NCBI GenBank assembly: GCA_016192145.1
Contig: JACPUT010000017.1
Span: forward strand, 62,001-126,000
Reading direction: 5' to 3'
DNA: 64,000 nucleotides
Origin: Acidobacteriota bacterium
GTDB lineage: Bacteria; Acidobacteriota; Holophagae; Holophagales; Holophagaceae
Each line of letters begins with the position of its first letter. The first letter of the stretch is position 1. Positions 12,335 through 19,845 of this stretch are shown in pieces. The position numbers were made by a program, and so were the translations under genes. The notes under the pieces were generated by a model that was not told the origin of the DNA, did not search any database, and saw only the letters and a list, made by a program, of their open reading frames with translations.

Positions 12335-14512
12335 ATGGCCCTCACCCCGACCTCCAGCTCCCCTCGACGCCTCCTGGGCCGCCCCGAAGCCCGGGATCTG
12401 GCCACTTCACGGCTGCCGTGGCTGATGGGCGTCATCCTGCTCTGGGGCGCGGCCATCTTCACGCGCCTGATCTGGCTTCAGGTGGTGCAGCACCGCAAGT
12501 ACCAGGTTCAGTCGGAGCAGCAGCACACCATCACCGTGCCCGTGCCGCCGATCCGCGGGGAGATCCGGGATCGCCGAGGCGAGGCCCTGGCCATTTCCCT
12601 GAAGGCTGAGAGCCTGTTCGCCACCCCCCGATTCTTCTATCCCGACTTCCGAAAGGACAAGGGCGAGCGCGCCTGGGGGAATCCCAACAAGAAGCTGGCC
12701 CAGGACGTGGCCTCCCAATTGGCTCCGATCCTGGAACTGCCCAAGGGCGTGGTGGCCGACCGGCTTCTGAAGAAATCTCCCTTCGTCTACCTGGAGCGGC
12801 AACTGCCCGCCTCCAAGGTGGCGGCCATCAAGGAGCTCATTTCCAAGGCTGAGGAAGAGGAGGAGGAGGACAAGCCCAACGGCTTCAAGGCCCTCGCCTT
12901 CCTGGATGAAAGCCGACGCGTCTATCCCCGCGGCAGCCTGGCCAGCCAGATCATCGGCTTCGTGAACGTGGACGGACAGGGGCAGCTGGGCATCGAACAG
13001 ACCTCCGAGCAGCTCCTGGCGGGCCGCAAGGGGGAGTTCGTGGCGGCCAAGGATGCCCGCAATCGGCTTCGCCTTCTGCGGGAGCAGTACACCCAGGTAC
13101 CCGTCAATGGGAGCACCCTGCAACTCACCATCGACAGCACCATCCAGCACATCGTGGAAGAATCCCTGGAAGAAGCCGTCCGCCTCTCCCGCCCCGCCAC
13201 GGCCTATGCGGTGGTGGTGGATCCGAACACGGGGGAGATCCTCGCCATGGCGGGTACGCCGCGCTTCGACCCGAACCAGCTCCTGCCCCGGAAGTTCCGG
13301 TACCGGGGTGAGGGCGACCTGAGCCCCGCCGAGCGGGACGAGCTCAGGCGGGAACTGGATCGCCAACGGGCCGCGCGCAAGGTGCATCCCGTGGAGGATG
13401 CCTACGAGCCGGGCTCCACCATGAAGATCTTCACGGCGGCCATCGCCCTGGAAGAGCGAAAGGTCCACCTCGGCGAACGGATCGACTGCATGGGCGGGCG
13501 CTGGGTTTACAACGCCAAGCAGAACGCCATCACCGATACTCACCACCACGGGGTACTCACCTTCGAGGAAATCCTCTGGCAGAGCTCGAACGTGGGCGCC
13601 GCCAAGATGGGCATCCGCCTCGACCCCGCCACCCACTTCCAGTACCTCCACAAGTTCGGTTTCGGGGAACCCACGGGCCTCAACTTCCCCGGCGAGACCC
13701 AGGGCCGCCTGCCCATTCCCGCCGAGTGGAGCGTGCCCACCCAGTACACGCTCAGCTATGGCTACGGCCTCAACGCCTCGCCCCTGCAGGTGCTCATGGC
13801 CGGGTGCGCCATCGCCAACGGCGGCAAGTTGATGAGGCCCATCCTCGTGAGCCGGATCTACAACGACAAGGGTTCGCTCCTCAAGGAAGCGAAGCCCGAA
13901 GTGCGTTTCACGGTCATGAGCGAGGAGACCAGCGCCCTCATGCGCGAATCCCTCAAGGGCGTCGTGAGCCAGGGCACGGCGAAGAAGGCGAAGCTCGATG
14001 GCGGGGTGGAGGCCTTTGGCAAGACGGGCACGAGCCGGAAGATCATCAACGGGAAATACGACCCCAAGCGCCACTTCGCGTCCTTCATGGGATTCTTCCC
14101 GGCGGAAGCGCCCCAGTACGCCATCCTCGTGATGCTGGATGATCCCGCGGGTGACGCCGATGGCGGCAGCGTGGCCGCTCCGGTCTTCAAGCGCATCGGC
14201 GACGCCATCCTGCGATATCGCCAGGGCGGCGGCGATGCCGAGCGTGGCGCGGATCTGAAGCTCTCCCTGCGGGACTGGCCCGTGGGCGAGACCGATGAGG
14301 CCGTGGTCCACATCCAGGAGGGGCGCGTGCCCTCGCTCCGGGGGCTCAGCCTCAAGGCGGCCATCCAGCGCATCGTGATGGCCGGCGGGGTGCCCAGGGT
14401 GGAGGGCCATCCCGAGGGCCTCGGCGCCGCCCAGGTGAAGGCGCAATCGCCCGAGCCGGAGGCGGATCTGAAGCCCGGCGGTGTGGTCATCATCAGAATG
14501 GGGGCCCCGTGA
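12335..14512 (+). CDS. ftsI: Peptidoglycan transpeptidase FtsI/PBP3 with C-terminal PASTA domain
   Basis: A 725-residue class B penicillin-binding protein. One membrane helix (about 27-48) precedes the PBP dimer domain (IRGEIRDRRGEALAI). The transpeptidase has the active Ser361 in EPGSTMKIF, SSN in WQSSNVGAAKM and KTGT in FGKTGTSRK. Residues about 660-725 (VPSLRGLSLKAAIQRI...PGGVVII) form a PASTA domain, uncommon in Gram-negative FtsI. It cross-links septal peptidoglycan with FtsW (at 42933). A 725-residue length is long for FtsI and includes an insertion with a Glu-rich run near residue 170. The stop overlaps murE by 4 nt (GTGA). Confidence 0.92.
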   Translation: MALTPTSSSPRRLLGRPEARDLATSRLPWLMGVILLWGAAIFTRLIWLQVVQHRKYQVQSEQQHTITVPVPPIRGEIRDRRGEALAISLKAESLFATPRFFYPDFRKDKGERAWGNPNKKLAQDVASQLAPILELPKGVVADRLLKKSPFVYLERQLPASKVAAIKELISKAEEEEEEDKPNGFKALAFLDESRRVYPRGSLASQIIGFVNVDGQGQLGIEQTSEQLLAGRKGEFVAAKDARNRLRLLREQYTQVPVNGSTLQLTIDSTIQHIVEESLEEAVRLSRPATAYAVVVDPNTGEILAMAGTPRFDPNQLLPRKFRYRGEGDLSPAERDELRRELDRQRAARKVHPVEDAYEPGSTMKIFTAAIALEERKVHLGERIDCMGGRWVYNAKQNAITDTHHHGVLTFEEILWQSSNVGAAKMGIRLDPATHFQYLHKFGFGEPTGLNFPGETQGRLPIPAEWSVPTQYTLSYGYGLNASPLQVLMAGCAIANGGKLMRPILVSRIYNDKGSLLKEAKPEVRFTVMSEETSALMRESLKGVVSQGTAKKAKLDGGVEAFGKTGTSRKIINGKYDPKRHFASFMGFFPAEAPQYAILVMLDDPAGDADGGSVAAPVFKRIGDAILRYRQGGGDAERGADLKLSLRDWPVGETDEAVVHIQEGRVPSLRGLSLKAAIQRIVMAGGVPRVEGHPEGLGAAQVKAQSPEPEADLKPGGVVIIRMGAP

Positions 14513-15969
14513 GGTTCGGAGATTTGCTGGCGGGTCAGGGTGCGGTGACGATCCAGGGCGCCGATGCCGAAGTCGTGGATCTCACCTGCGATAGCCGGGA
14601 GGTTCAGCCCGGCTGGGTCTTCGTGGCACTCAAGGGTGAGAAGTCCCATGGCGCCGACTTCATCCCCGCGGTGATCGCCAAGGGGGCCGCCGCCGTGATC
14701 CTGGATGACCCCGCCCGGCCCTTGCCGGGAGGCGTGGCCGCCGCGCTGATGCCCGGAGCCCGCGCCGGGATGGGCCTCCTGGCCAAACGCCTGCACGGCG
14801 CCCCGGATGAACGGCTCACCCTCATCGGCGTGACGGGCACCAATGGAAAAACCACCACCACCACGCTGATCCGCCAGCTGCTGCGGGCCTCGGGCATCGG
14901 CTGCGGATTGGTGGGCACGGTGGTCAATGCCGCGGGGGACCGCGAAGAGGAAGCCGTCCGCACCACGCCGGAGAGCCCCAGCTTCTACCGATGGCTCCAT
15001 CGCAGCTTGGAGGCGGGTGACCCGGCTTCCGCCGTCGAGGTGAGCAGCATCGGCCTGGAGTTGGGCCGCGTGGCGGGAGCCCGCTTCAAGGTCGGTGTCT
15101 TCACGAACCTCACGCAGGACCACCTGGACTTCCACGGCGACATGGAGACTTACTTCCAGGCGAAACTCCGCCTCATCGACAGGTGCGATCGATTCCTCGT
15201 GAACGCGGATGACCCCTACGGCCAACGGCTCCTCGCCGAAGGGCGGCACCGGAGCTATGGGCTCGAGCATTCGGCGGACTATCGGATCACCGATCTCGAG
15301 GAATCCGCCACGGGCACCCGCTTCACCCTGGTGACTCCCGGGAGCTCCCATGCCGTGGCGAGCCCGCTGCTGGGGCGCTTCAACGTCTACAACCTGCTGG
15401 CCGCCCTGGCGGCCGTGGCGGAAGCGGGCTTCGACCTCGCGGAGCTCCTGCCTGGCGTGCCTAAGCTCACGGGGGCGCCGGGTCGCCTGGAGCGCGTGGA
15501 CTGCGGGCAGGCCTTCGGCGTGATGGTGGACTACGCCCACACCCCCGATGCGCTCCAGAAGCTGCTGGCGGCGGGCAAGGCCCTGCTGCCCGCCGGAGGC
15601 CGCCTCCACGTGCTCTTCGGGTGCGGGGGCGAGCGCGATCGCACCAAGCGTCCCCTCATGGCCGCCGCCGTGGCCGCGGGGGCCGACGTCATCTGGCACA
15701 GCACGGACAACCCCCGGAACGAGGCCATCGAGCAGATCCTGGACGACGCCATGCCGGGCATCCCCGAGCCGATCCGAACCGACCCCGCCCGGTACCACCG
15801 CATCGCCGATCGCGCCGTGGCCGTGCGCGAGGCCCTGGCCGATTGCCGGCCCGGGGATCTGCTCCTGCTGGCGGGCAAGGGCCATGAGCCCTATCAGGAG
15901 ATCGCCGGCGTGAAGCACCCCTACAGCGATCGCGGCGCCGTGGAAGCCGCCCTGGGGAGCGCCCGATGA
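14509..15969 (+). CDS. murE: UDP-MurNAc-tripeptide synthetase MurE
   Basis: A 486-residue Mur ligase: GVTGTNGKTTTTTLI (ATP loop), the YAHTPDALQ segment and WHSTDNPRNEAIEQI. The DNPR motif is the signature of enzymes adding meso-diaminopimelate, so the wall should be of the meso-DAP type. It starts at GTG 14509, overlapping ftsI by 4 nt, and its stop overlaps the next gene by 4 nt (ATGA), so it is tightly coupled on both sides. Confidence 0.93.
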   Translation: MRFGDLLAGQGAVTIQGADAEVVDLTCDSREVQPGWVFVALKGEKSHGADFIPAVIAKGAAAVILDDPARPLPGGVAAALMPGARAGMGLLAKRLHGAPDERLTLIGVTGTNGKTTTTTLIRQLLRASGIGCGLVGTVVNAAGDREEEAVRTTPESPSFYRWLHRSLEAGDPASAVEVSSIGLELGRVAGARFKVGVFTNLTQDHLDFHGDMETYFQAKLRLIDRCDRFLVNADDPYGQRLLAEGRHRSYGLEHSADYRITDLEESATGTRFTLVTPGSSHAVASPLLGRFNVYNLLAALAAVAEAGFDLAELLPGVPKLTGAPGRLERVDCGQAFGVMVDYAHTPDALQKLLAAGKALLPAGGRLHVLFGCGGERDRTKRPLMAAAVAAGADVIWHSTDNPRNEAIEQILDDAMPGIPEPIRTDPARYHRIADRAVAVREALADCRPGDLLLLAGKGHEPYQEIAGVKHPYSDRGAVEAALGSAR

Positions 15970-16457
15970 TCGCCGCCCTGCGCCCCGTCCTCCGCCGCGA
16001 CCTCGACACGCTCGAGCGGGAGCTCGCCCTCTATCCCGACGACGCCAGCCTGTGGGTGGCGGTGCCCGGTCAACCCACCGCCGGCGGCAACCTCGCCCTC
16101 CACTTGGCCGGCAACCTCCGCCACTTCATCGGCGCCACCCTGGGAGGCACCGGCTACGAGCGGCAGCGGGAACTGGAGTTCAACACCACGGGCCTGAGCC
16201 GGGAGGCCGTGATCGCGGAGGTGCGCCGGGCCGCCGCGGAGGTGGAAGCCACGCTGGCCGGCCTGGATCCGGCGCGGCTCACCGCGACCTACCCGCTCGA
16301 AATCCAGGGCCTCCGGCTGGGCACCGAGGTCGTGCTGCTGCACCTGGCCACCCACCTCGCCTTCCACCTTGGCCAGGTGGACTACCACCGCCGGGCCGTC
16401 ACCGGCGATCGCACCTCGGCGGGACCGCTGGCCCTGGCACCCTTGGAGTCCCGATGA
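15966..16457 (+). CDS. DinB-like / DUF1572-type four-helix protein inside the dcw cluster
   Basis: A 163-residue alpha-helical protein. ALHLAGNLRHFIGATLGGTGYERQRE and HLATHLAFHLGQVDYHRR carry histidines arranged as in the metal site of the DinB/YfiT superfamily. Members are thiol-dependent transferases or of unknown role. What makes it notable is location: it overlaps murE by ATGA at its start and murF by ATGA at its end, so it is produced in step with two peptidoglycan ligases. I see nothing in it that links it directly to the cell wall. Confidence 0.75.
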   Translation: MIAALRPVLRRDLDTLERELALYPDDASLWVAVPGQPTAGGNLALHLAGNLRHFIGATLGGTGYERQRELEFNTTGLSREAVIAEVRRAAAEVEATLAGLDPARLTATYPLEIQGLRLGTEVVLLHLATHLAFHLGQVDYHRRAVTGDRTSAGPLALAPLESR

Positions 16458-17812
16458 GCGGCGGCTTCACCTTGGCCGAAGCGGCCGCGCGCATCGGCGC
16501 GAAGCTCAGGGGCGAGGGCGGCCACGTGCCTTCGGCCCTCTCCATCGACACCCGCACGATCCAGCCCGGGGAGTGCTTCGTGGCCCTGCGCGCCGAGCGG
16601 GACGGGCATGACTTCGCCGCCCAGGCCGTGGCCAAGGGTGCCACCTCGTTGCTGGTGGATCACTTCCTCGATCTGCCCGTGCCGCAGCTCGTGGTGGGGG
16701 ATACCCTCGCGGCCATGCAGGCCTGGGGCCAGGCCCGCCTGGAGGCCGTGCGGCCCCGGGCCGTCTTCGGCATCACGGGCAGCGTCGGCAAGACGAGCAC
16801 CAAGGAACTGCTGGCCAGCGCCGTCTCCGGCTGGAAGACGCCCGGCAATCGCAACAACACGATCGGCCTGCCCCAGGCCCTCGCCACCTTGCCGGCGGGG
16901 CAGGGCGCCGCGGTGCTGGAGATGGGCATGAGCACGCCCGGGGAGATCCGCCGCCTCACGGAGATCGCGCCCCTGGATTTCGGCCTCATCACCCTGGTCG
17001 GCACCTCGCACATGGAGAACTTCACGGAAGGCCAGGAGGGCATCGCCAGGGCCAAGGGCGAGCTGGTGGCGGGGCTCCGTCCCGGAGGGGCCTGGGCGCA
17101 CCTGAGCACGGATGCGTGGTGTGCCTGGATCGCGAACCAACCGTGGGCCGCCCACGCCCTGTCCGTGCCCGTTGGGCCCGGCTCCGACTTCGGTTGGGAA
17201 GCCTGGCGGTCCCTCGGCCCCCGGGGCGAGGCCTTCACGCTGCGCACGCCGGAGCACCGGGCCCCCGTGGCGATCCAGTTGCGGGGCGAGCATCAGGTCC
17301 GTAACGCCGCGTTGGCCGCCACGGTGGCCCTGCTGGCGGGCTGGAAGCTGGATGAGGTGGTCGCCGGGCTGGGCAAGGCCGAGCCCGAGTGGGGGCGCGG
17401 CCGGCTCACGGCCCTGAGGGGCGGCGGCTTGATCCTCGATGAAAGCTACAACGCCAGCCCCGATAGCATCCTGGCCTGCGGCGCGAGCCTGATGGAGCTG
17501 CCGGGCGGCGAGCCCGTGGCGGTGCTGGGGGGCATGCGGGAGCTGGGGAGCACCGCGGCGGAAGCCCACCGGCGCGTGGGCGCGGGGCTCAGGGCCCTCG
17601 GGATCCGGCGCCTCCTCGCCTTTGGGGAACATGCCCCGGCCTATGCCGAGGCCTTCGGGCCGGGCGGCCGGGCTTTTCCGGATTTCGAATCCCTGCGCGA
17701 TGATGAAGCAGGTCTCCCGACCCTTTCCCCGGATGCCCGCGTCCTCGTGAAAGGCAGCCGTTTCTATCGCACCGAACGGGCGGTGGAGTGGCTCCAATCC
17801 CAACTCGCCTGA
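16454..17812 (+). CDS. murF: UDP-MurNAc-tripeptide--D-Ala-D-Ala ligase MurF
   Basis: A 452-residue Mur ligase. ITGSVGKTSTKELLA is the ATP loop, GNRNNTIGLP is the conserved post-loop segment, EMGMSTPGEI and the later LDESYNASPDS motif are typical MurF. It adds D-Ala-D-Ala to UDP-MurNAc-tripeptide. The start at ATG 16454 overlaps the DinB-like gene by 4 nt. Confidence 0.93.
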   Translation: MSGGFTLAEAAARIGAKLRGEGGHVPSALSIDTRTIQPGECFVALRAERDGHDFAAQAVAKGATSLLVDHFLDLPVPQLVVGDTLAAMQAWGQARLEAVRPRAVFGITGSVGKTSTKELLASAVSGWKTPGNRNNTIGLPQALATLPAGQGAAVLEMGMSTPGEIRRLTEIAPLDFGLITLVGTSHMENFTEGQEGIARAKGELVAGLRPGGAWAHLSTDAWCAWIANQPWAAHALSVPVGPGSDFGWEAWRSLGPRGEAFTLRTPEHRAPVAIQLRGEHQVRNAALAATVALLAGWKLDEVVAGLGKAEPEWGRGRLTALRGGGLILDESYNASPDSILACGASLMELPGGEPVAVLGGMRELGSTAAEAHRRVGAGLRALGIRRLLAFGEHAPAYAEAFGPGGRAFPDFESLRDDEAGLPTLSPDARVLVKGSRFYRTERAVEWLQSQLA

Positions 17813-17838: not shown

Positions 17839-18927
17839 ATGCTGCTCTGGCTCTTCCTTCACTTTCGCGACTCCCTGAAGGGCCTCTCGGTCCTCCGCTA
17901 CATCACCCTCCGGGCCGCCATGGCCGCGGCCACGGCGATGGTGCTGAGCCTGATCCTGGGCCCCTGGCTCATCCGCACCCTGCGGCGCCTCAAGATGGGC
18001 CAGCACATCCGGCAGGAGGGCCCCCAACATCATCAGGGCAAGTCGGGAACGCCCACCATGGGCGGCCTGCTCATCCTCGTGGTCATCGCCCTCAGCACCC
18101 TCATCTGGGGTGACCTGAGGAGCGGGGCCATCTGGATGTGCCTACTTGCGCTCCTGGGCTTCGGCACCGTGGGGGCCTTCGACGACGCCAAGAAGCTCAT
18201 GAAGAAGCAGAACCTCGGCCTCACCTCCTGGCAGAAGATGGGGCTGCTCACGGTCATCTCGGTGACGGTGGCCTGGGTGATCCTCCACTTCGACATCCGC
18301 GGCGCGAACACGAGCCAGCTTTCGGTGCCCTTTTTCAAGAACTTCAAGCCGGACGTGGGTTACCTCCTCATCCCCTGGATCTGGCTCGTGATGGTGGGCA
18401 CCAGCAACGCCGTGAACCTCACGGACGGCTTGGATGGCCTCGCCGCCGGCGGCGTCCTCATCGTCACCGTCACCTTCGCGATCCTCTGCTACGTGGGCGG
18501 CCACATCAAGATGGCCCAGTACCTCCTCGTGCCCCACGTGCCGGGCGCCGCCGAGGTCACCGTGTTCCTGGGCGCCATGGCGGGGGCCTGCCTGGGCTTC
18601 CTCTGGTACAACGCCCACCCCGCCGAGGTGTTCATGGGCGACACGGGCTCCCTGGGCCTGGGTGGCGCGCTGGGCACGGTGGCCGTCATCACGAAGCAGG
18701 AACTGCTCCTCGTCATCGCCGGTGGCCTCTTCGTGCTGGAGGCCTTCAGCGTGATCCTGCAGGTGGGCAGCTACAAGCTGCGCGGCGGCAAGCGCATCTT
18801 CCGCATGGCCCCCTTCCACCACCACATGGAGCTGGGCGGCCTCGCGGAGACGAAGGTGGTGATCCGGCTCTGGATCACGGCCATCGTCTGCTGCATCCTC
18901 GCGCTCAGTTCGTTGAAGCTGAGGTAG
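17839..18927 (+). CDS. mraY: Phospho-MurNAc-pentapeptide transferase MraY
   Basis: A 362-residue integral membrane enzyme with about ten helices. It shows GTPTMGGL, FDDAKKL, the NAVNLTDGLDGLAAG active-site loop and the C-terminal FRMAPFHHHMELGG motif. It transfers phospho-MurNAc-pentapeptide to undecaprenyl phosphate, making lipid I. It is the last forward gene of the first dcw block before the reverse-strand EAL gene. Confidence 0.95.
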   Translation: MLLWLFLHFRDSLKGLSVLRYITLRAAMAAATAMVLSLILGPWLIRTLRRLKMGQHIRQEGPQHHQGKSGTPTMGGLLILVVIALSTLIWGDLRSGAIWMCLLALLGFGTVGAFDDAKKLMKKQNLGLTSWQKMGLLTVISVTVAWVILHFDIRGANTSQLSVPFFKNFKPDVGYLLIPWIWLVMVGTSNAVNLTDGLDGLAAGGVLIVTVTFAILCYVGGHIKMAQYLLVPHVPGAAEVTVFLGAMAGACLGFLWYNAHPAEVFMGDTGSLGLGGALGTVAVITKQELLLVIAGGLFVLEAFSVILQVGSYKLRGGKRIFRMAPFHHHMELGGLAETKVVIRLWITAIVCCILALSSLKLR

Positions 18928-19074: not shown

Positions 19075-19845
19075 CTAGAGGCTTGCCGGCGTTCCGGGCC
19101 ACAGCGGCGCCACCTTCAGCGGCTGCGGCTGGCCGAAGACGTAGCCCTGGCCCCAGGGCACGTCCGCGTCGATGACAGCCTGGAGCTCCTCGGCGGTCTC
19201 GATGCCCTCGGCGATGAAGCCGATGCACATACGCTGCGCGAACACGGAAAGGGCGTTCAGCAGCGCGGCTTGGTAGGGGCGGCGGTGGGCCTGCTCCACG
19301 AGGGAGCGGTCGGCCTTGATGAAGTCGGGGGCCAGTCGGGCCATGTGGGTGAGGCTGGCCACGCCGGCGCCCAGGTCATCCACCGCCAGTTGGAGGCCGT
19401 GGCTGCGCAGGCTCTTGGCGCAGTTCTGGAGGAGATTCAGGTCGTGGATGCCGTGGCTCTCGGTGAACTCCACCACCACGTTCAACGGGGGGATCTGAAG
19501 GTCGCTGAGCCAACCCTGGAGCCTGCCCCAGAAGCGCGGGCTCTCCAGGGTCATGGGCTCCACGTTGATGAAGTGGAGGCGGCTGGAGGGGGGCTGGTCG
19601 CGCAGGGCCCTGAAGGTGGATTCGAGGCAGACCAGATCCACGTCCAGGCGCGTGGCGTCGTCGAGGTTCACGAAGTCCAGATCCGCGAGGGTGAGGAGCC
19701 GGCCCCTGGGGTCCACGAAGCGGGTCAGGTACTCCTGGGCCACCGGCTCCAGGGTCCGGAGGCCGAGCACCGGCTGGGCGTGGGCCTGCAGGGCCTGCTT
19801 GCCTTCCAGGATCGCCCTCAGCAGGGGCGCATTGCGAGACGTCAT
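19075..19845 (-). CDS. EAL-domain protein (cyclic-di-GMP phosphodiesterase-like)
   Basis: A 256-residue stand-alone EAL domain. The usual EAL triplet reads EYL (AQEYLTR), but the other catalytic residues are present: the metal Asn in FINVEP, Glu in VVEFTES, DDLGAG for the paired Asp, the Lys in DFIKADRS, Glu in FIAEGIET and the Gln in GQGYVFGQP. It could therefore hydrolyse cyclic-di-GMP. No GGDEF, PAS or receiver domain is attached. It lies on the reverse strand between mraY and murD, splitting the dcw cluster. Confidence 0.83.
   Translation of the reverse strand: MTSRNAPLLRAILEGKQALQAHAQPVLGLRTLEPVAQEYLTRFVDPRGRLLTLADLDFVNLDDATRLDVDLVCLESTFRALRDQPPSSRLHFINVEPMTLESPRFWGRLQGWLSDLQIPPLNVVVEFTESHGIHDLNLLQNCAKSLRSHGLQLAVDDLGAGVASLTHMARLAPDFIKADRSLVEQAHRRPYQAALLNALSVFAQRMCIGFIAEGIETAEELQAVIDADVPWGQGYVFGQPQPLKVAPLWPGTPASL

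Follow-up and report, generated by a model that had tools for sequence, protein, structure and literature searches.

The window considered here, a 64,000-nucleotide stretch of an Acidobacteriota genome (assembly GCA_016192145.1, contig JACPUT010000017.1, positions 62,001 to 126,000 of the forward strand), contains a run of dcw genes in the order ftsI - murE - dinB - murF - mraY, in which the gene for a small DinB-like protein is set between two Mur ligase genes. The assignment of murE and murF follows from gene order and from matches in relatives, Pfam giving Mur ligase for both. Throughout, 'the family' denotes a set of 77 genomes (f1), with genera labelled g1 to g11, in which the window's genome is G000. 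The features at the locus are as follows:

12335..14512, + strand: ftsI-like penicillin-binding protein with a PASTA domain, upstream dcw gene (Pfam Transpeptidase, PBP_dimer, PASTA)
14509..15969, + strand: murE, Mur ligase (Pfam Mur_ligase_M/C; family-wide matches; 4-base overlap with ftsI)
15966..15969, + strand: ATGA overlap of dinB start and murE stop (sequence; 4-base overlap in 5/5 testable genomes)
15966..16457, + strand: dinB-like gene, 163 aa, putative DinB/STL-superfamily metalloprotein, probably bacillithiol-S-transferase-like (profile, alignment, model, structure comparison)
16101..16103, + strand: His46 codon, predicted metal ligand (78/78 sequences; invariant in the 46-row alignment)
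16353..16355, + strand: His130 codon, predicted metal ligand (78/78 sequences)
16365..16367, + strand: His134 codon, predicted metal ligand (77/78 sequences)
16454..16457, + strand: ATGA overlap of murF start and dinB stop (sequence; 4-base overlap in 3/6 genomes)
16454..17812, + strand: murF, Mur ligase (Pfam; family-wide matches)
17839..18927, + strand: mraY (Pfam Glycos_transf_4 and MraY_sig1)

The ATG of dinB lies within the ATGA that closes murE (murE TGA at 15967-15969), and its TGA (16455-16457) lies within the ATGA that opens murF at 16454, just as an earlier note on this DNA had described for an open reading frame overlapping both neighbours. Such stop/start overlaps are, by a rough count, not rare in the window: besides those of dinB, three occur among 28 same-strand neighbours, ftsI/murE included, in a crude gene call that missed dinB itself and is therefore a rough yardstick only. 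Two lines of evidence establish that dinB is a real gene: Firstly, relatives at 59-67% identity adjoin murE and/or murF in five other genomes, so that the possibility foreseen in the note, of a gene found in this genome only, gives way to six genomes of two sister genera. Secondly, three pairs of sequences show purifying selection much as in murE, with dN of 0.13-0.30 and dS of 0.74-1.14 for dinB, and dN/dS of about 0.17, 0.15 and 0.27 against 0.13, 0.16 and 0.21 for murE. The gene is maintained by selection.

Profile searches place the product in the DinB superfamily (DinB_2, 36.7 bits against a cut-off of 24.8), with the Pfam MST model (PF04978) also exceeded at 29.1 bits against 27. DUF1572 (PF07609) is matched by 44 of 46 aligned homologues at E<=0.01, whereas the window protein itself falls below the cut-off (21.5 bits against 23); DinB_2 is matched by all 46 at the same threshold, and TIGR03083, a mycothiol-dependent family, by seven. 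With the window protein as query, an NCBIfam search returned no match and a single-sequence search of the PDB no convincing one, the best PDB match by profile being 2ou6 (DUF664, E 0.004). In all, sequence searches gave little, and tied the dinB subfamily to no assayed enzyme.

Ten positions (W30, G41, H46, G49, G56, R66, R68, E71, F72, H130) are invariant in 78 homologues and a further seven (R79, H134, G136, Q137, Y140, R142, R143) are present in 77 of the 78, part of this conservation being bias, since the named-genome homologues were retrieved by six short query peptide patterns, including WVAVPGQP and GQVDYHRR. The three putative histidine ligands fall outside all six patterns, and the sequences accord with a three-histidine metal site: H46 and H130 in 78/78 and H134 in 77/78.

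The protein is predicted to fold as a four-helix bundle (mean pLDDT 93.7, pTM 0.89). Foldseek ranked the DinB/YfiT protein DR0053, the M. tuberculosis mycothiol S-transferase and two B. cereus proteins as its top four, at E-values of 1.8e-3 to 2.4e-3, of which even the best is only 1.8e-3. Alignment of the model with VIA-align gave 3cex at Z 15.8 (rmsd 2.5, 144 aligned), 8f5v at Z 15.7 (rmsd 2.3, 142 aligned), YjoA at Z 14.9 (rmsd 2.5, 138 aligned), YizA at Z 14.6 (rmsd 2.8, 152 aligned) and S. aureus BstA at Z 12.7 (rmsd 3.4, 141 aligned); helical bundles below about Z 13 may share only a common arrangement, so the BstA match alone is not telling. Among solved structures, the closest matches are thus DinB/YfiT proteins, YjoA and YizA of B. 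subtilis, and the mycothiol S-transferase of M. tuberculosis, the last with mycothiol and zinc. The DinB_2 score, the confident model and these structural matches uphold the superfamily identity first proposed for the protein, which, on sequence and modelled fold, is probably bacillithiol-S-transferase-like.

As described in the part of PMC5815605 drawn on here, BstA-BstH of B. subtilis and BstA of S. aureus share with dinB a single DinB domain, a four-helix bundle, which for dinB is predicted, and three conserved histidines, and share with the window's genome the presence of bacillithiol genes and several divergent paralogues per genome. The same part of that source reports that each of the eight STL proteins of B. 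subtilis was active with bacillithiol but with neither cysteine nor CoA, that EDTA lowered their activity to the chemical rate, that the three histidines are their only fully conserved residues, and that BstF, BstG and BstH (YizA) had the lowest activity among these enzymes. It also reports an H67/H160/H164 site and metal dependence for the B. subtilis Bst enzymes, and the predicted histidine triad of dinB appears to resemble that site. The Bst systems differ, however, in that dinB has only 10-14% identity to YjoA, YizA and S. aureus BstA in structural alignments, carries further invariant residues (W30, G41, R66, R68, E71, F72, GQxxY, RR), sits inside a dcw operon and is a candidate enzyme. 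The M. tuberculosis mycothiol S-transferase (8f5v/8fx9; MST, PF04978) is like dinB in fold, at the Z-score given above, and in that the MST model exceeds its cut-off, but unlike it in sequence (14% identity) and in that it is bacillithiol genes that were found in the window's genome.

Those genes comprise BshA (505 bits) and BshB1 (218 bits), both over cut-off, and, directly before bshB1, a BshC-like gene that scored 66.5 bits against 27 over two partial stretches of the model. Across the family the BshC model is over cut-off in 72 of 77 genomes, mostly across about 50 of its 380 positions. At the level of genes, then, the window's organism would be expected to make bacillithiol, and, for Acidobacteria and Gemmatimonadetes, the part of PMC6282198 used here predicts from genes either bacillithiol or its methyl form. 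DinB_2 is over cut-off at 12 places in the genome, dinB included, two of these being less than 1 kb from another such place and perhaps belonging to a single gene. On one contig (C9), the bshC-like gene and bshB1 overlap by 4 bases (L163:984-2875), and the strongest DinB_2 match of the genome lies some 6 kb from the pair.

A DinB-fold protein that performs no thiol chemistry, for example one that is ClbS-like or a metal-dependent hydrolase, strikes us as a rather doubtful alternative: the fold hosts several activities, the structures of ClbS, EgtB, SenA and OvsA match the dinB model as well, and Arg66, Arg68, Glu71 and Phe72, invariant in the 46-row alignment, mark out the subfamily, yet thiol transferases are among the structures that rank highly, and the genes for the thiol are present in the genome.

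Whatever the chemistry, the position of dinB between murE and murF can be judged from what relatives carry there. Both genes lie on one contig in 61 of the 77 family genomes, the count leaving out 13 in which murE and/or murF are not on one contig and three with neither. The slot holds full-length Sua5 in 42 of the 61 and dinB in three; in 14 there is no gene, murE and murF being no more than 60 bases apart, and in two they are separated by a short spacer, of 118 and 288 bases, in which no gene was seen. Sua5 has a role in tRNA modification; it occupies the slot in g3, g4, g5 and the deeper-branching g11, and its two domains (Sua5_yciO_yrdC and Sua5_C) were confirmed by Pfam for one slot copy. 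In five of the 13 genomes left out, all of g3 (G042, G043, G044, G046, G048), Sua5 shares a contig with murE or with murF. The three slot copies of dinB are all in g1 and g6, and in three more genomes of g6 dinB has just one of its two junctions. Sixteen of the 61 genomes have neither sua5 nor dinB between murE and murF. In 14 of them the sole Sua5 homologue is a shorter and more distant one lying elsewhere, G014 adds to this a full-length copy on a separate contig, and G060 gave no Sua5 match; the three slot-dinB genomes likewise have only the shorter homologue. Read by eye from one tree, Sua5 is probably the older occupant, with several losses.

Other cargo is found in the same gap. Both g4 genomes carry an SDH_alpha-family gene between sua5 and murF (profile-tested in G052, by similarity in G051), and between murE and sua5 there is a nucleotidyltransferase gene in G051 (L148) and a nucleotidyltransferase and HEPN pair in G041 (L147), which are of toxin-antitoxin type. 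The first of these is located as follows:

L149:2594-3856 (G052), also in L148 (G051): SDH_alpha-family gene, serine-dehydratase-like (by eye like L-cysteine desulfidase)

Similar short peptides, by eye resembling dispersed repeat elements, recur in the DNA of several genomes, beside sua5 or in the murE-murF gap (L110-L114, L126-L128).

Outside the family, the comparison covers 41 of 354 genomes, among the matches listed for both genes, which are among the closest in sequence and not a random sample. In 40 of these 41 murE and murF are adjacent, the remaining genome (G174) having them on two contigs and being dropped, and none of the 40 has room for a gene between them (raw gaps of 29-178 bases). 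A core dcw gene would be conserved in position; dinB holds this position in 3 of 61 genomes of the family and 0 of 40 paired genomes beyond it.

Homologues of dinB occur in 50 of the 77 family genomes (E<=0.001). Six of these, namely the two g1 genomes (G000, G054) and G056, G057, G058 and G059 of g6, have the gene next to murE and/or murF; the fifth g6 genome (G055) has neither a DinB match nor a murE match. The other 44 are away from murE, 24 of them (L007-L030) having flanks of about 1.5 kb with neither murE nor murF, and 20 having murE, as judged from coordinates, at a distance of over 1 Mb or on a different contig. Nor was murE or murF seen in the flanks, some of them short, of 58 homologue loci from named genomes.

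A tree of MurE and MurF from 31 of the 77 family genomes and five others groups g1 and g6 in a single clade (support 0.96) with g3 as its sister, and in a DinB tree that included only 23 of the 50 family homologues (L084, L087 and L088 being dropped as too short) the six genes beside murE/murF likewise form one clade (support 0.94). A single entry of dinB into the slot would be the simplest reading of these trees. The g3 homologues have a conserved context of their own: in ten g3 genomes with longer flanks dinB lies near RlmF, DUF4199 and NUDIX homologues, in the order RlmF - dinB - DUF4199 - NUDIX - AhcY - RadC (names by eye). The window's genome has an RlmF homologue on contig C9, the other six reference proteins of the g3 locus being unmatched in the 14-kb stretch read. 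The nearest named-genome homologues are mostly Gemmatimonad by name (49 of 58). These suggested horizontal gain, but deep supports in the DinB tree are low (0.3-0.66) and fix neither donor nor direction. The neighbours of the Gemmatimonad homologues differ between subgroups, and some look by eye like peroxiredoxin, MsrA, Fpg or a second DinB.

The overlaps themselves can be compared between the two occupants of the slot, with the in-frame start nearest such an overlap chosen for sua5 and dinB alike and all start sites being putative. Of 14 sua5 genomes read, eight show an overlap of exactly 4 bases between the murE stop and a sua5 start, and six show one of 4 bases between the sua5 stop and a murF start; an unrelated gene is thus joined to murE just as dinB is. 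The 4-base overlap of dinB with murE is kept in all five genomes with both on one contig, while that with murF is present in three of six, the genes abutting in G054. In G058 and G059 murF is on another contig behind other genes, and dinB is still beside murE. The positional conservation that the note had proposed to survey therefore stands for the murE junction (5/5) and fails for the murF junction (3/6), and slot dinB is confined to one clade and 3/61 genomes. As a separate observation, the dcw cluster in G058 and G059 is broken right after dinB (L090, L092, L129, L130), and murF follows a TPR-like gene, identified by eye.

It is against this background that a role in wall synthesis must be weighed. 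Such a role, for example metal-dependent hydrolase or transferase activity towards a Mur intermediate, or partnership with MurE/MurF, is in our judgement very improbable. Its sole support here is the kept position, that is, the murE overlap in 5/5 genomes and its retention over two genera under purifying selection. Against it, dinB is absent from the slot in 58 of the 61 contiguous family genomes and from the gap in 40/40 paired outside genomes among the matches listed, 44 of the 50 homologues in the family stand apart from murE, the 58 named-genome loci have neither Mur gene in the flanks examined (some short), and Sua5 fills the slot in the same way. The claim that the product is locked to peptidoglycan precursor synthesis does not hold as a statement of function: the murF junction is not kept, the slot carries Sua5 in 42/61 genomes and no gene in 16/61, Sua5 shows the identical murE overlap in 8/14, and murE and murF are adjacent in 40/41 outside genomes among the matches listed. 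Literature searches for the DinB superfamily together with murE and murF, and for Geothrix together with dcw, found nothing. Since in close relatives this gap is empty or filled by unrelated genes, the murE-murF position most likely marks a slot for shared expression and does not point to a wall function.

The reading that we favour, and regard as fairly probable, is that dinB is a bacillithiol-S-transferase-like passenger in a permissive slot, which it entered once, and that it is probably co-expressed with murE. Its product would be a single-domain DinB/STL-superfamily metalloenzyme in which His46, His130 and His134 probably bind a divalent metal; the metal would activate a thiol of low molecular weight, for which bacillithiol is the likeliest candidate, and the activated thiol would be transferred to an electrophilic small molecule. 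Within the family the murE-murF junction would be permissive, its earlier occupant probably being sua5; in the ancestor of the two sister genera sua5 would have been lost from the slot, and dinB, already in the family or newly acquired, would have taken it. Joined to murE by the start/stop overlap, dinB is probably translated in the cell with the wall operon, which would give it steady, growth-linked expression. As dinB has kept the slot and its murE overlap under purifying selection, and has stayed with murE where the operon is broken, some positional benefit is likely.

Two further readings also concern the position; the readings weighed here overlap in part, and the degrees of confidence given to them do not sum to one. 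It is conceivable, and on balance unlikely, that the position was itself selected for growth-linked expression of a protective bacillithiol transferase acting against electrophiles or antibiotics and guarding the cytosol, perhaps the Mur enzymes among others. This account overlaps with the favoured one but gives the position a purpose, and it fits the presence of thiol pathway genes and the retained murE junction; it sits less well with a candidate enzyme that has no assigned substrate, and with homologues that are missing (27/77) or elsewhere (44/77) although nearly all family genomes match the BshC model. Distinctly improbable, in our estimate, is that the slot is a plug-in site at which genes from unrelated pathways (Sua5, DinB and, in some genomes, serine-dehydratase-like and nucleotidyltransferase/HEPN genes) have successively been coupled to murE, and that in g1 and g6 the transferase was adopted and ties thiol protection to how fast precursors are made; loss of dinB would then make wall synthesis fail under electrophile stress.

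Under the favoured reading, the locus offers a worked example of why function should not be assigned from a start/stop overlap alone, even in a famous operon: in related genera the same junction holds an unrelated gene that is joined in just that manner. If the idea of a slot is right, the states observed (no gene, sua5, dinB, others) would form a natural series for the entry of new genes into essential operons, and would bear on how such operons gain genes without breaking translation. Further along the same cluster, an EAL-domain gene (19075-19845, - strand; Pfam E 3.1e-43) lies on the opposite strand between mraY and murD, as it also does in G054, G065 and G066, a possible cyclic-di-GMP link inside the dcw cluster.
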